NCBI GenBank assembly: GCA_011045995.1
Contig: DSBQ01000037.1
Span: forward strand, 1-59,448
Length of the DNA stretch: 59,448 nt
From: Methanoculleus sp.
Lineage (GTDB): Archaea; Halobacteriota; Methanomicrobia; Methanomicrobiales; Methanomicrobiaceae
Reading direction: 5' to 3'
Shown here: one piece after another, positions 4,625 through 14,006 of the stretch
Numbering within the stretch: position 1 is the first letter of the stretch
Layout: every line of letters begins with the position of its first letter
Notes under the pieces: model-generated
What the model was told of the DNA's origin: nothing
The model's input: only the letters and a program-made list of their open reading frames with translations
Databases searched by the model: none
Translations under genes and position numbers: made by a program

Positions 4625-6181
4625 ATGGGGACAATCACCTATGTCTCACTTGAAGGGGACGAAAGCATACACCCGCAGTATGAAGAAGGACTGGCACGGG
4701 CTGAAGAACTCCTGGGAAAGACCCACCCGCTCTATATCGGCGGAAGGGAAGCGTTTGCGGGGGAGACGTTTACCGTCACCTCACCTATCGACCGGCGGCT
4801 TGTCATCGGGACCTTTCAGCGGGCGGGTGCCGGGCTTGCCGGAGCCGCCGTCGACGCGGCGGATGGTGCCTTCGAGGCGTGGCGAAGCCGGCCGTGGGAA
4901 GAACGGACAGTGATAATGGACGAGGCGGCGGACCGGCTCGAGGCCTCGCTCTTCCTCCTCGCAGCCCTCATTACCCTTGAATCGGGCAAACCACGGGGCG
5001 AGGCCATTGCGGAGGTCGGCGAGGCCATCGAACTCTTCCGCTACAATGCCCGTCAGATGTGGGAGCAGAACGGCTTTGTCAGGCAGATGCCCGCAAGCAC
5101 CCCGGCGCAGCCGCATACGAGCGTTATGCGGCCATATGGTGTCTGGGCGGTCATCTCACCCTTCAACTTCCCTCTCATGCTTGCCGCAGGGGCAGCCTCC
5201 TCGGCAATCATGACGGGGAACACCGTCGTCCTCAAACCGACGAGCGCCGCACCTCTTACTGCCGTCCACCTCTACCACGTCCTTGCTGCGGGGGTACCCA
5301 ATGGCGTCGTCAACCTCATCACCGGACCGGGCGAACCGTTCGGGGACGCAATCGTCGGCTCGCCAAAGGTAGCGGGCATCGCCTTCACCGGGTCACGGGC
5401 CGTCGGGATGCGCCTTCAACGGGAGTTTGCCGCCTCGCAGCCGTACCCGAAACCAATCGTCCTCGAGATGGGGAGCAAAAACCCCTGCATCGTCACCGCC
5501 CATGCAGATCTGGCAAAGGCGGTGGAGGGCGTTACCCGGGGCGCATTCGGGGCCACCGGCCAGAAATGCAGTGCGACCTCGCGGGTCTACATCCACGAAT
5601 CCGTCTTCGACGCGTTTGCGGGCGCCCTCACCCAGCGTGTGCAGGAGATCAGCGCCGGTGACCCGCGTATCAGGGAGACGTTCATGGGCCCGCTCATCGA
5701 CGAACGGGCTGCAGCACGCTTCCGGGCAGCGGCCGAGGAGACCCGGGCGGTGGGGGGTATGGTTCTCTGTGGCGGCGATTTCATCCATGGGGGGATCCTG
5801 GACGAGGGATATTACCCACAGGCAACCGTGGTGACCGGCATCCCCGGCACCCACCGGCTGATGAAGGAAGAGCTCTTTGTCCCCTTCGTCATCCTCGCCC
5901 CGTATACGACCCTGGAGGAGGCGCTCGAGCGTGCGAACGACACAGAATACGGGCTGACCGCGGGCATCTTCACCGAAGACCCCGCGGAGGCCGACGAGTT
6001 CTTCGAGCAGATCCGCTTCGGGGTCTGCTATGCCAACCGTAAGGGCGGCGCCACGACCGGCGGTTGGCCGGGCGCCCAGTCGTTCGGCGGATGGAAGGCA
6101 AGCGGTGCGACCGGAAAAGGGGTGGGGGGCCCGTATTACCTCCTGAACTATATGCACGAACAGGCACAGACACGCCTTTAA
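4625..6181 (+). CDS. pruA: L-glutamate gamma-semialdehyde (1-pyrroline-5-carboxylate) dehydrogenase
   Basis: Aldehyde dehydrogenase that oxidises glutamate semialdehyde (open P5C) to glutamate with NAD(P)+. The 518 residues include the WAVISPFNFP segment, the nucleotide-site stretch TGNTVVLKPTSAAPL, the general base Glu281 in VLEMGSKNP and the nucleophile Cys315 in GQKCSATSR. The C-terminal NRKGGATTGGWPGAQSFGG and TGKGVGGPYYL stretches are typical of the P5C dehydrogenase branch rather than generic aldehyde dehydrogenases. GGAGGGAAG lies just upstream of the chosen ATG at 4625. Proline dehydrogenase follows after 12 bases, which fixes the likely substrate. The 162-base gap behind arcA may carry a separate promoter. 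Confidence 0.88.
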   Translation: MGTITYVSLEGDESIHPQYEEGLARAEELLGKTHPLYIGGREAFAGETFTVTSPIDRRLVIGTFQRAGAGLAGAAVDAADGAFEAWRSRPWEERTVIMDEAADRLEASLFLLAALITLESGKPRGEAIAEVGEAIELFRYNARQMWEQNGFVRQMPASTPAQPHTSVMRPYGVWAVISPFNFPLMLAAGAASSAIMTGNTVVLKPTSAAPLTAVHLYHVLAAGVPNGVVNLITGPGEPFGDAIVGSPKVAGIAFTGSRAVGMRLQREFAASQPYPKPIVLEMGSKNPCIVTAHADLAKAVEGVTRGAFGATGQKCSATSRVYIHESVFDAFAGALTQRVQEISAGDPRIRETFMGPLIDERAAARFRAAAEETRAVGGMVLCGGDFIHGGILDEGYYPQATVVTGIPGTHRLMKEELFVPFVILAPYTTLEEALERANDTEYGLTAGIFTEDPAEADEFFEQIRFGVCYANRKGGATTGGWPGAQSFGGWKASGATGKGVGGPYYLLNYMHEQAQTRL

Positions 6182-6193
6182 GGACATACTACC

Positions 6194-7009
6194 ATGACAC
6201 CATCAACAGGCCCACAGCGCTGGACCCTCCCCGACCTGCCAGGCGCCCTTGCCTGGTGCAGCGAACGGGCGGATGAAGGTATCCGGGGGATACTCCACCC
6301 CCTCCGGGAGTTTGCACAGACAGAACAGGAGGCACTGGACAATGCCGGGGCGTATATGACCTGCGCCGCCGCCATCGCGGACGCGGGTCTGGATGCCTCC
6401 GTTGCGGTCAAACCGACGGCCATCGGCATCTCGTCTGACAGGGACCGTGCGACGGAGGTCTTTGTCACCATACTCGAAGCCTGTGCCGGTCTCGGCGTCC
6501 CGGTGGAATGTGATATGGAAGGGGCGCCGATGGTGCCTGCCACGGTCCGCATGGCCCTTTCAGCGGCAGAGCAGGGCCATCTGTTCACCATCACTCTCCA
6601 GTCCTACCTCACCCGGACTCCCGAAGACATCGCCCATTCGACGGGGTCGGGGCTGACCGTCCGCCTGGTGAAGGGGGCATACCTTGGGGATATCCGGAAC
6701 CGGGAGGAGATCCGAAGCGCCTATCGCACCCATCTCCTCCTCCTCGCGCGCCAGCAGCCGAGATTTCGCATCGGCACACTGGACCGTTCCCTCATCCGGT
6801 GGGCACAGGAGACCTTTCCCGAAGCCCGTGCCCGCATGGAGTTTGGATTCTTAAAAGGCATCGGCGAGCGTACGGCCGTTCAGATGGCAGGGGACGGATG
6901 GAGGGTCGCCCAGTACATCCCGTACGGAAATGACACCAGCAGCTACACCCGGCGACGCGAAATCTACCTGAACCTCCTCGCCCGGGTCGGAGAAGCCCCT
7001 CTCAACTGA
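6194..7009 (+). CDS. Proline dehydrogenase (FAD-dependent, monofunctional)
   Basis: Oxidises proline to P5C, which the upstream gene then converts to glutamate. The 271-residue protein is a stand-alone beta/alpha-barrel PRODH, somewhat short for the bacterial monofunctional type (about 300). Visible conserved parts are SVAVKPTAIGI near residue 70, the RLVKGAYLG strand, ARMEFGFLKGI, and the C-terminal substrate segment YIPYGNDTSSYTRRREIYL, whose paired arginines bind the proline carboxylate in known PRODHs. The 12-base gap to the P5C dehydrogenase gene indicates one transcript. Electrons must leave through FADH2; no obvious quinone or partner subunit is encoded nearby, so the acceptor in this organism is open. 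Confidence 0.85.
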   Translation: MTPSTGPQRWTLPDLPGALAWCSERADEGIRGILHPLREFAQTEQEALDNAGAYMTCAAAIADAGLDASVAVKPTAIGISSDRDRATEVFVTILEACAGLGVPVECDMEGAPMVPATVRMALSAAEQGHLFTITLQSYLTRTPEDIAHSTGSGLTVRLVKGAYLGDIRNREEIRSAYRTHLLLLARQQPRFRIGTLDRSLIRWAQETFPEARARMEFGFLKGIGERTAVQMAGDGWRVAQYIPYGNDTSSYTRRREIYLNLLARVGEAPLN

Positions 7010-10600: not shown

Positions 10601-10772
10601 TCAACCGGTCGCACGGTATCCGCTGGTCCGGCCCGTGCAATGATACGGAGAAAGGAGGTCCATTTCCCTTTCTGATCCCGTGAATATAATGGAAATGCTG
10701 ATGTATGCCGCAGGCAACATCATCCTGACTGGTACGGAGACGAATCGGGAAATCGCCCGAGGAGCCGCGGCA

Positions 10773-12845
10773 ATGAACCTTTTCAGCACCCCTCACCGCA
10801 GCAGAACCAATGACCCTTCGTCAGGCAATTACGCAAACGGGGGGAAACCTGCTGCACGGCCCGACGGTAATGCCGGTAATGCCGGCAACCGTTCCGACAT
10901 GCTCCGGTTTATCGGGCCCGGCCTGTTGCTTGCCATTGCTGCCGCCGGCGAGAGCGGTATTGCCGAGGCGATCGAGATCGGGGCCCACTTTGGCTATGCC
11001 GTCATCTGGGTGATCGCCCTCACCCTGATGTTCAAGTTTGCCTTTGCAAACGGTATCGCCCGCTACACCCTCGTCACCGGGGAGACGATCTTTGACGGTA
11101 TTGGCCGCATTCCGGGCCCCCGTCACTGGGCAAACTGGCTCGTGATGACCATCTACCTCCTCGAGATGTTCGCGTTCGGGGGGATGCTCCTCCTCGGTGC
11201 CATATTCATGGACTATCTCCTCCCCGGGGCCTTCTCCCCCGAAATTATCGCGATCATCACCATCACCGCCGTCATCCTCCTCCTCTGGAAAGAATCATAC
11301 GAACGTCTCGAGACGATAATTCTTGCAATCGCCCTTCTCCTCTTCTTTGGCATCGGCTTCTCTCTCCTGAAGTTCCCGCTCAGCCTCACCGCAGTATCGA
11401 CCGGCATCGTCCCGCAGATCCCGGACGGTTCGCTTTTTGCCATCATGGCCCTGGTGGGGGCTGTCGGGTCCGGTCTCAACATCCTCCTCTCCTCTATCTG
11501 GCTCAGGGAAAAGACCGGTGGCGAACACGGGACCGACTGTTTCCGGCGCTGGATGCCCGGCGTCAATTTGGACCTTGCCCTCGCGTTCCTCTTCATTGGT
11601 CTCGTCACCGTCCTCTTCATCTCGCTCGGGATGACCGGGTTTGCCGTCTCCTACATCGAACACGGAGAGTCCTTCCCGCTCGACTCCCTCATTGCGCAGG
11701 TTCTCTACGTGATCGCCTATATTCCGTATGGAGTCCCGGTCTTCCTCGCCTTCGGGTACCTCATCATGTTCGGTGCCGTCCTCACCGGGATGGATGGACG
11801 TGCCCGGGCGATCTCCTCGTTTCTCCGCACCGATATGGGAATGCAGTACGAAGAACGCGACCTCTTCCTTCTCCTCCTGATGCTCCCTTCCCTCATGATC
11901 CTCATGGCTGTGGTTGCCGGGGAACCGATGGCCGTTGTGCACGGGGTATCGGCAGTTGCCGCCATCGCCTTTGCAGTGATGGGATTTGTCCTGATGTACC
12001 TTGACATGCAGCTGCCCGAAGGGGGCAGAGGGTCACGCCTCTGGCTGCTTATCATCGGCACGGGAAGCACCGTCTTTCTGCTGATGGCGCTCTTCATGGA
12101 GGAAGCCGTCCTTTCCTTCGGTCTTCCGCTTGCTGAACGGCTGATCGTCGTCGCCTTCGTCCTCTTCGTCTTTGCCCGGACAAAGCTCTTCAGGTCGCTC
12201 ATTGACGGGACGACGGGGGCGTGGGACCGCCTCTGGGCCGTCCTTATCTTCGGTGTCCTCTCGGTCTACGGAACCTTCCGCGGGATACCATACGAGGATA
12301 TCATCATCAACTTCCGCGACCTCGGACCCATCCTGGCGGGAATGGTCGGCGGCCCTCTCGTCGGGGCGGGTGCCGGAGTCATCGGCGCTGTGTACCGGTA
12401 TCCCATCGGGGGCAGCACGGCCCTCGCCTGTGCGGCTGCGGCCGTCGCGGCGGGTATCATTGCCGGCCTGTATACGAAGATGTTCCGGGGTGACATCACC
12501 GTCCCCCGGGCGATTCTCCTGATCATCATCGTCGAGGCGGTGCACATCTTCATCCTCATCCCGCTCCTCTCCGGTATCCCTGCCTTCACCGACTTCCTTG
12601 TCATCGTGCGGGTCACCTTTCTCCCGATGGTGGCAGCCCAGTCCCTCGGGGTGGTCATCTTCCTCTTCATTCTGGCGGATGAAGGTCTTTCCCTGAAGAC
12701 ACGGTTTTCCGGCACCGGCAACCGGCCGGGGGACGGCGGCATCCCCCCGGAAAGGAGCGGGGCCGGGACCGACAGGCCTGAACAGTTCCGGGGCGAAGAT
12801 GCATGGCAGACAGCGGCACCCGTCTCAGAAGGTGAGGATGCATGA
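10773..12845 (+). CDS. Nramp-like transporter fused to a LytS-type 5TM receptor domain
   Basis: A 690-residue polytopic membrane protein in two parts. Residues about 40-450 look Nramp-like (FIGPGLLLAI, TLMFKFAFANGIARYTLVTG, EMFAFGGMLLLG). The canonical metal ligands are absent, however: helix 1 reads AAAGESGI where metal transporters have DPGN, and helix 6 reads GAVGSGLNILLSSIW without MPHN. From about residue 500 the sequence switches to the 5TM-5TMR_LYT sensor fold: FRDLGPILAGMVGGPLVGAG, YRYPIGGSTALACAAAAVAA and IIAGLYTKMFRG. A GAGGAG Shine-Dalgarno eight bases before 10773 sets this start over earlier in-frame GTG/ATG codons. It overlaps the binding-protein gene by four bases. A ligand-gated transporter is an inference. 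Confidence 0.78.
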   Translation: MNLFSTPHRSRTNDPSSGNYANGGKPAARPDGNAGNAGNRSDMLRFIGPGLLLAIAAAGESGIAEAIEIGAHFGYAVIWVIALTLMFKFAFANGIARYTLVTGETIFDGIGRIPGPRHWANWLVMTIYLLEMFAFGGMLLLGAIFMDYLLPGAFSPEIIAIITITAVILLLWKESYERLETIILAIALLLFFGIGFSLLKFPLSLTAVSTGIVPQIPDGSLFAIMALVGAVGSGLNILLSSIWLREKTGGEHGTDCFRRWMPGVNLDLALAFLFIGLVTVLFISLGMTGFAVSYIEHGESFPLDSLIAQVLYVIAYIPYGVPVFLAFGYLIMFGAVLTGMDGRARAISSFLRTDMGMQYEERDLFLLLLMLPSLMILMAVVAGEPMAVVHGVSAVAAIAFAVMGFVLMYLDMQLPEGGRGSRLWLLIIGTGSTVFLLMALFMEEAVLSFGLPLAERLIVVAFVLFVFARTKLFRSLIDGTTGAWDRLWAVLIFGVLSVYGTFRGIPYEDIIINFRDLGPILAGMVGGPLVGAGAGVIGAVYRYPIGGSTALACAAAAVAAGIIAGLYTKMFRGDITVPRAILLIIIVEAVHIFILIPLLSGIPAFTDFLVIVRVTFLPMVAAQSLGVVIFLFILADEGLSLKTRFSGTGNRPGDGGIPPERSGAGTDRPEQFRGEDAWQTAAPVSEGEDA

Positions 12846-14006
12846 CCCGGCTTCTTGACATACTCCCCTATCTGTTTGCTGCCGGTCTCATCACCGCAAT
12901 CGTCACCGGGACACTGGTCGCGACCCCCGACTATGGCGAGGCGGAGACTCTCGATGTCGGCCTCGTCCTCCCCCTCTCCGGCAGCCTTGCCGGCTACGGG
13001 GTGGACATCAGGGACGGCATCACCATTGCAGTCGACGAGATAAACAGGGACGGCGGTATCGGCGGAAAGGATCTCCGCATCATCTGCAGGGACAACCAGG
13101 GCTCGGCGAACCGAACCGCTGCGATCGTGGAGGATTTTGCGGCAGAGGGCATCCCTGTCGTCATAGGGCCGGTGACGAGCACCAGCGCGCTTGCGGCCGC
13201 CAAGGTCGCCGATGAACGGCAGATCGTCCTGATAACCCCGACCGCGACGACCCCTCTTCTCTCCGGAGCCGGCAGGTATGTCTACCGCACCATCTCTTCG
13301 GACACCTATCAGGGACGCGGGATGGCGACAGTGCTCATGAGCCTCCACCCGGAGGTGGAGAACGTAGCAGTGATGTATATCGACAATGCCTACGGCAACG
13401 GCCTCCGGGAACCCTTTGCCGGCACCCTTGCCGCACTCGGCGGGACCGTCGTCTGTGAGGTCCCGTTCAGCGAGGGTCAGGATACCTTCACCGACGCCAT
13501 CGCTGAGGTCCGCCTATCGGGGGCAGAGGCGGTTGCCCTCATCAGCTACCTCTCCGAGGCAGAGCATATTATTCGTGAGGCAAGACGTCAGGACCTCGCG
13601 GTCGCATGGATTGGCTCGGACGGCATCGTCACCTCGGAACTCATCACCGTGGCAGGTGACGCAACCGAGGGAATCGTTGCAACGATCCAGGCAAACCAGG
13701 TCCGGTCCTCCTCCTTTATCGCGAAGTACGGCAGCCTCACAGGAAAGGACACCGTCAACTGGGAGGCGGCATATGCATACGATACAATGATGATCGTCGC
13801 CGAGGCCATTGAGTACGGCGGCTATTCGGCAGACGGCATACGCAGCCATCTCGACCGCATCAGGTACGTCGGCATCTGCGGACCGAAGGTCTTTTGACGA
13901 AAACGGGGATGTACCCCCCGCATTCGATGTGATGCGGGTAGAGGAGGGCGCCTGGACCCGCGTTCCCTGGAGCGAGCTTGCTGCCGCCAGTATGACCGGA
14001 CACTGA
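12842..14006 (+). pseudogene. Periplasmic ligand-binding protein (Leu/Ile/Val-binding type), frame broken near the C-terminus
   Basis: Peripla_BP_6 fold protein, exported or membrane-anchored by one N-terminal helix (LLDILPYLFAAGLITAIVTG). The mature part begins LDVGLVLPLSGSLAGYGVDI and contains RDGITIAVDEINRDGG, VVIGPVTSTSALAAAKV, VAVMYIDNAYGNGLREPF and WEAAYAYDTMMIVAEAI. The first frame ends GICGPKVF-stop at 13897, but the family's closing strand SFDENGDVPPAFDVMRV...GAW follows immediately in another frame and ends at 14006. Removing one base in AAGG near 13887-13892 restores GPRSFDENGD. No ABC permease or ATPase gene follows. Its four-base overlap with the fused transporter suggests they work together. 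Confidence 0.76.

Follow-up and report, generated by a model that had tools for sequence, protein, structure and literature searches.

What task do a transporter-like protein, a receptor domain and a solute-binding protein perform when they are encoded as one unit? The question is raised by two overlapping genes in the window, by which we mean the whole 59,448-nucleotide stretch analysed (Methanoculleus sp., contig DSBQ01000037.1). The first gene encodes an Nramp-like domain fused to a LytS-type 5TM-5TMR_LYT (LYT) domain, and the second a LivK-type binding protein. An earlier note had proposed that they could form a new ligand-gated transport or signalling system. The fusion, its lost metal ligands, its partner without ABC components and the conservation of the pair all agree with that proposal, whereas an output domain for signalling is missing. 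We conclude that the pair probably constitutes a so far unstudied system in which uptake or sensing depends on the binding protein.

Results

Domain architecture of the fusion protein

The features of the locus are listed below; all lie on the forward (+) strand.

10773–12845 (+): Nramp-LYT fusion of 690 aa from an ATG start; an in-frame GTG at 10680 is an alternative
10947–10967 (+): TM1 motif G59-E60-S61-G62-I-A-E65, replacing DPGN; G59, E60, G62 and E65 invariant in 39/39
10959–11981 (+): Nramp-like domain (PF01566), LeuT fold; Pfam E 1.8e-16, Foldseek matches to Nramps
11469–11480 (+): TM6 motif S233-G-L235-N236, replacing MPHN, from the alignment with Nramps
12183–12680 (+): 5TM-5TMR_LYT domain (PF07694) with ECF S-component fold; Pfam E 8.8e-36
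12315–12317 (+): Arg515, aligned with BtsS Arg72 (pyruvate site; PMC10653868)
12396–12398 (+): Arg542, aligned with BtsS Arg99 (pyruvate site)
12429–12431 (+): Cys553, aligned with BtsS Cys110
12842–12845 (+): ATGA, four-base overlap of the fusion stop and the binding-protein start, as in 12 of 27 downstream pairs
12842–13897 (+): binding protein of LivK type (Peripla_BP_6/ANF_receptor), anchored in the membrane at its N-terminus; 351 aa in the assembled frame
13892–13895 (+): TTTT run, frame break relative to intact relatives
13898–14006 (+): remainder of the binding-protein gene in a shifted frame, ending in a terminal His, by comparison with relatives

A Pfam search placed the Nramp domain at residues 64–404, with a score above the gathering cut-off, and the LYT domain at residues 472–637; the numbering of these spans (protein P0001) begins one codon ahead of the ATG. 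Both domains of the predicted fusion, an Nramp-like part followed by a LytS-type part, were thereby detected in the expected order, although the second starts near residue 470 and not near 500 as first supposed. No other family was found: nothing matched beyond residue 640, leaving no kinase or output domain after LYT, and the elevator-type permease families DctM, TctA and GltS were absent, as were SLC5, STAC and kinase domains. The AlphaFold model of the fusion (pLDDT 81, pTM 0.72) resembled solved Nramp structures over its first 410 or so residues, with TM-scores of up to 0.85 by target length, and Foldseek matched this part to DraNramp, BfraNramp and EleNRMT at a lowest E of 6.7e-9. The protein ends in a poorly conserved, disordered tail of about 40 residues (648–690; pLDDT below 50, 37% identity within the genus), which, providing no output domain, counts in favor of transport. 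Compared with a copy from the same genus (L048), dN/dS was approximately 0.20 for the whole fusion, 0.18 for its Nramp part, 0.15 for its LYT part and 0.25 for the binding protein; both proteins are under purifying selection.

Replacement of the metal site

Alignment with DraNramp and BfraNramp showed the substitutions D56 to G59, N59 to G62, M230 to S233 and H232 to L235. TM1 thus reads GESG and TM6 reads SGLN, and the DPGN and MPHN ligands are missing, as had been noticed earlier from the sequence. The canonical ligands are replaced in each of 39 full-length fusion relatives, and G59, E60, G62, E65 and E131 are invariant across the same 39, which argues for transport; the new TM1 signature is G-E-x-G-x-x-E. 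Given the low dN/dS of both domains, the metal site has been replaced and has not decayed. Nramp-like domains without LYT occur at three further loci (L045:5989–7242, L126:4971–6221 and L128:4977–6389, all on the minus strand), where TM1 reads SSAGW or SSSGW.

The binding protein

The product of the second gene is a Peripla_BP_6 protein (E 1.4e-46), and both the overlap and the Leu/Ile/Val-type assignment proposed earlier are confirmed; the end of the gene at 14006 is not, the assembled frame stopping at 13897 and 14006 being reached only by a change of frame at the TTTT run. In intact relatives, including the same-genus copy, a single uninterrupted frame encodes roughly 385–415 residues, of which about 35–60 lie beyond the window's break point. 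The break in the window therefore reflects either a mutation at that site or a fault of the assembly. As read from the alignment, most of 26 copies carry a hydrophobic N-terminal anchor, often after a short charged tail, and no lipobox.

S113, T136 and Y184 are kept in all 26 aligned copies, and position 260 is Asp or Glu in every one of them. We take these positions to correspond to the site residues S79, T102, Y150 and E226 of LIVBP. Because these equivalents are conserved, the ligand of the operonic protein is likely an amino-acid-like solute. A terminal His closes 20 of 25 operonic binding proteins (L048–L074, with the window's copy left out), as against 3.4% of neighbouring proteins; the copies bearing it are kin, so that a binomial significance computed on them is not a probability. 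The tail ahead of this residue varies in length and is flexible.

Search for an ABC partner

No ABC permease or ATPase gene lies near the pair in the window, as the earlier note had stated, and the same holds for the LivH/LivM permease family BPD_transp_2 (PF02653) on a genomic scale: none was found above the cut-off in the 28 genomes carrying the pair, the window's own included. Applied to 99 relatives and 14 control genomes, the identical search detected the family in 22 and 12 of them, respectively. The window's genome is a 1.57-Mb draft that is just 82% complete, and the argument from the missing permease therefore rests on the relatives. In 17 of the pair genomes the operonic protein was the sole Peripla_BP_6 found, and six of these genomes (G003, G004, G006, G009, G014 and G017) are about 99% complete.

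Conservation and distribution of the pair

We surveyed 100 relatives, many of which have the fusion, mapped forty-odd loci and aligned 39 full-length fusions. Sequence relatives came from records of Methanogenium, Methanocorpusculum, Methanocalculus, Methanoculleus and Methanospirillaceae; viral relatives were sought and none was found. The full-length proteins fall into group A (n = 28) and group B (n = 11), separated by a branch with support of 100/99 in a tree whose root is not known and some of whose long branches are uncertain.

In group A, sampled from Methanomicrobiales, a LivK-type gene adjoins the fusion in 28 of 28 cases, 27 times downstream and once upstream (L070, in reversed order). 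The exact four-base overlap, ATGA or GTGA, is present in 12 of the 27 downstream pairs, and the remainder have a plausible start no farther than about 20 bases from the stop, the broken copy L055 being the exception. Six more loci (L132–L136 and L139) also have a binding-protein gene downstream. None of the 11 group-B fusions has one adjoining. A Peripla_BP_6 gene follows the fusion throughout group A, apart from the reversed locus, and not in group B. Neither of the outcomes that the earlier note had named as refuting it was observed: similarity to LYT is strong, and the pair recurs in conserved order. Flanking genes change from genus to genus and the pair stays together; the pair is old.

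Several variants and neighbours were also recorded. Nramp-LYT-LYT proteins occur at L037 and L130, and a protein of 1126 aa with three tandem LYT domains (L170:5953–9333, minus strand) comes from another family of the phylum. Four further proteins (L120:4378–7836 on the minus strand, L121:5959–9459, L122:2685–6140 and L123:1433–4873) have two LYT domains and, after them, some 280 conserved C-terminal residues for which no profile match was found. This region looks like a histidine kinase by eye, an identity that we rejected (hhalign probability 1.5; no solved structure matched). A second paralogue, which belongs to group B and has no binding-protein gene, occurs at L032, L034, L035, L038 and L039, with a response-regulator/histidine-kinase gene upstream on the same strand. 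At two Methanocorpusculum-type loci a gene judged by eye to encode a BMP/PnrA-like lipoprotein runs divergently to the fusion (L067:3844–4872, minus strand; L066:7924–8952, plus strand).

The LYT module

With E. coli BtsS, in which pyruvate is bound by R72, R99, C110 and S113 (PMC10653868), the window's LYT domain shares 26% identity (E 1.5e-12). Three of these four residues are kept, the Ser113 position being Ala556. Across group A the equivalents of R72, R99 and C110 are present in 18, 23 and 23 of 28 proteins, respectively, a pattern that argues against a transporter with a carboxylate-binding LYT module; since the equivalents are not universal, LYT ligands may differ within the family. A separate AlphaFold model of the domain had a pLDDT of 92, and its first 27 Foldseek matches were all S-components, with TM-scores mostly of 0.5–0.65 and modest E values (4e-3 to 0.3). 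ECF-ribofla_trS (PF07155) likewise matched 23 of 31 LYT members at E ≤ 1, with a best value of 5e-8. These results agree with the relation between S-components and 5TMR domains already published (PMC11109136).

Discussion

We tentatively favor, as close to an even prospect, a reading in which the pair is a binding-protein-dependent, Nramp-related transporter of the amino-acid type with a built-in carboxylate-receptor module. The LivK-type protein, tethered outside the cell by its N-terminal helix, would catch an amino-acid-like solute and, by way of a presumed contact between the two proteins, pass it to the Nramp-fold part of the fusion. This part, with its G-E-x-G-x-x-E and S-G-L-N site, would carry the organic solute by alternating access. 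The C-terminal LYT module, with its S-component fold, would bind a small carboxylate of the pyruvate or acetate class and would gate or tune the transporter inside the membrane.

The Nramp family offers a precedent for such transport in PxpT, which is needed for growth on 5-oxoproline (PMC13274462); against it, the PxpT relative YcsG is reported as a Mn importer (PMC10448178). So far as the available portions of these sources go, PxpT/YcsG and EleNRMT (PMC8806188) share with the fusion its membership of the Nramp family, with divergent or disputed substrates (5-oxoproline, Mn and Mg), but are described with neither a LYT domain nor a binding protein. Also weighing against transport, known binding-protein-dependent secondary transporters are of the elevator type and not of the LeuT fold (PMC12344293). 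Proline was considered as a substrate and rejected: proline dehydrogenase is absent from many pair genomes and present in genomes without the pair. In the window, 3.8 kb upstream of the pair, lie a P5C-dehydrogenase-like gene and, after it, a short proline-dehydrogenase-like one (4625–7009), and such a gene pair is also found near the fusion pair in a sister genus.

The closest rival to the transporter reading, possible if unlikely, is pure sensing. Here the binding protein and LYT would supply two inputs, the Nramp domain would be a former transporter turned switch, and output would pass through a separate histidine kinase or effector. Characterised proteins use LYT for sensing (PMC10653868), and within the same archaeal order the domain heads SpoIIE/PP2C-type phosphatases and histidine kinases (domains assigned by eye). 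A divergent PAS-HATPase gene adjoins six group-A loci of one genus, a REC-HisKA_2-HATPase gene lies directly upstream in group-B loci of that genus and of the window's genus, and the additional 280 or so C-terminal residues in four relatives point the same way. That region, however, matched no kinase profile, no kinase is kept beside the pair across genera, group A has no cytosolic output domain, and the transporter core is strongly conserved.

It is quite improbable that the fusion has stayed a metal transporter, as an NRMT-like carrier of divalent ions with a new site formed by E60, E65 and E131 and regulated by LYT and the binding protein; the latter may bring a metal–amino-acid chelate or lend its C-terminal His as a ligand. 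The closest solved structures to the Nramp part are all metal transporters, which speaks against carriage of an organic solute, the acidic residues in TM1 and TM3 are conserved, and the enrichment of the terminal His would fit a metal ligand. Nramp-related proteins lacking DPGN/MPH are moreover diverse and include a Mg transporter (PMC12873925). Yet the canonical side-chain ligands are all gone, and the partner protein retains the site residues for an amino acid and not for a metal. Genes resembling metal ABC importers (by eye) stand near eight or nine loci, but they are mostly convergent and confined to some genera of one family, and we rejected them as partners of the pair.

That the two genes share an operon by coincidence, the binding protein serving independently as, for example, a scavenger or a co-receptor of something else, is very improbable. 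The group-B fusions, which do without the binding-protein gene, speak for it; against it stand the complete linkage in group A despite differing flanks, with one locus reversed, and the frequent four-base overlap.

The transporter reading finds its nearest functional precedent, by analogy, in TAXI-GltS (PMC12344293), in which a tethered binding protein lacks its usual transporter class and translational coupling joins its gene to a secondary transporter gene. The pair shares with the TRAP, TTT and TAXI-GltS class this linkage or coupling of the two genes, but none of the elevator-type permeases of that class. GltS is thought to be of the elevator type and the TAXI protein binds glutamate, whereas the present pair combines a LeuT-fold Nramp domain and an S-component fold with a LivK-type protein. 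HAAT (LivK) ABC importers share with the pair a Peripla_BP_6 protein with amino-acid-site residues but depend on the LivH/LivM permease missing here. The fusion has the family and fold of canonical Nramps (SLC11/MntH) without their DPGN/MPH motifs. It resembles the BtsS/LytS pyruvate receptor kinases in its LYT domain and the R72, R99 and C110 equivalents, but it has no kinase, carries Ala in place of Ser113 and has LYT at its C-terminus, behind the transporter part. In the CbrA/CrbS SLC5-STAC-histidine kinases (PMC13022988, PMC9100948) a transporter fold is likewise joined to a signalling-associated module, but the transporter family is another one, and the fusion has neither STAC nor kinase.

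The bare Nramp-LYT fusion is already known, which limits the newness that the earlier note had claimed. In 2024 Partipilo and Slotboom (PMC11109136) reported NRAMP-5TMR fusions, exceptional and prevalent in archaea, with the identical order of an Nramp-like part and a C-terminal 5TMR. Their paper presumes divalent-metal transport, whereas the window's fusion has lost the metal ligands, and in its accessible part makes no mention of a binding-protein partner, of that loss or of forms with two or three LYT domains. Our search of the open literature found no report for the fusion of the binding-protein pairing, the ligand replacement, the terminal His or the repeat-LYT forms; such absence is no proof of novelty.

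The known partners of binding proteins are ABC transporters and a small number of elevator-type secondary transporters, and the strict linkage of a LivK-type protein to an Nramp-like one, in genomes lacking the LivHM permease, makes a new and directly testable pairing. It is conceivable, as a more doubtful claim than the transporter reading itself, that this is the first binding-protein-dependent transporter on the LeuT/Nramp (rocking-bundle) fold, with a LivK protein captured as its partner and a module of the S-component type fused in cis. If so, the pattern by which binding proteins pair with ABC or elevator-type transporters alone would be broken, and the fusions would represent a branch of the Nramp superfamily that does not handle metals. 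The fusion places transporter and S-component/LYT receptor modules on a single chain, which in some methanogens carries as many as three LYT copies; if the transporter reading is right, the Nramp fold would have been turned to a task other than metal transport.
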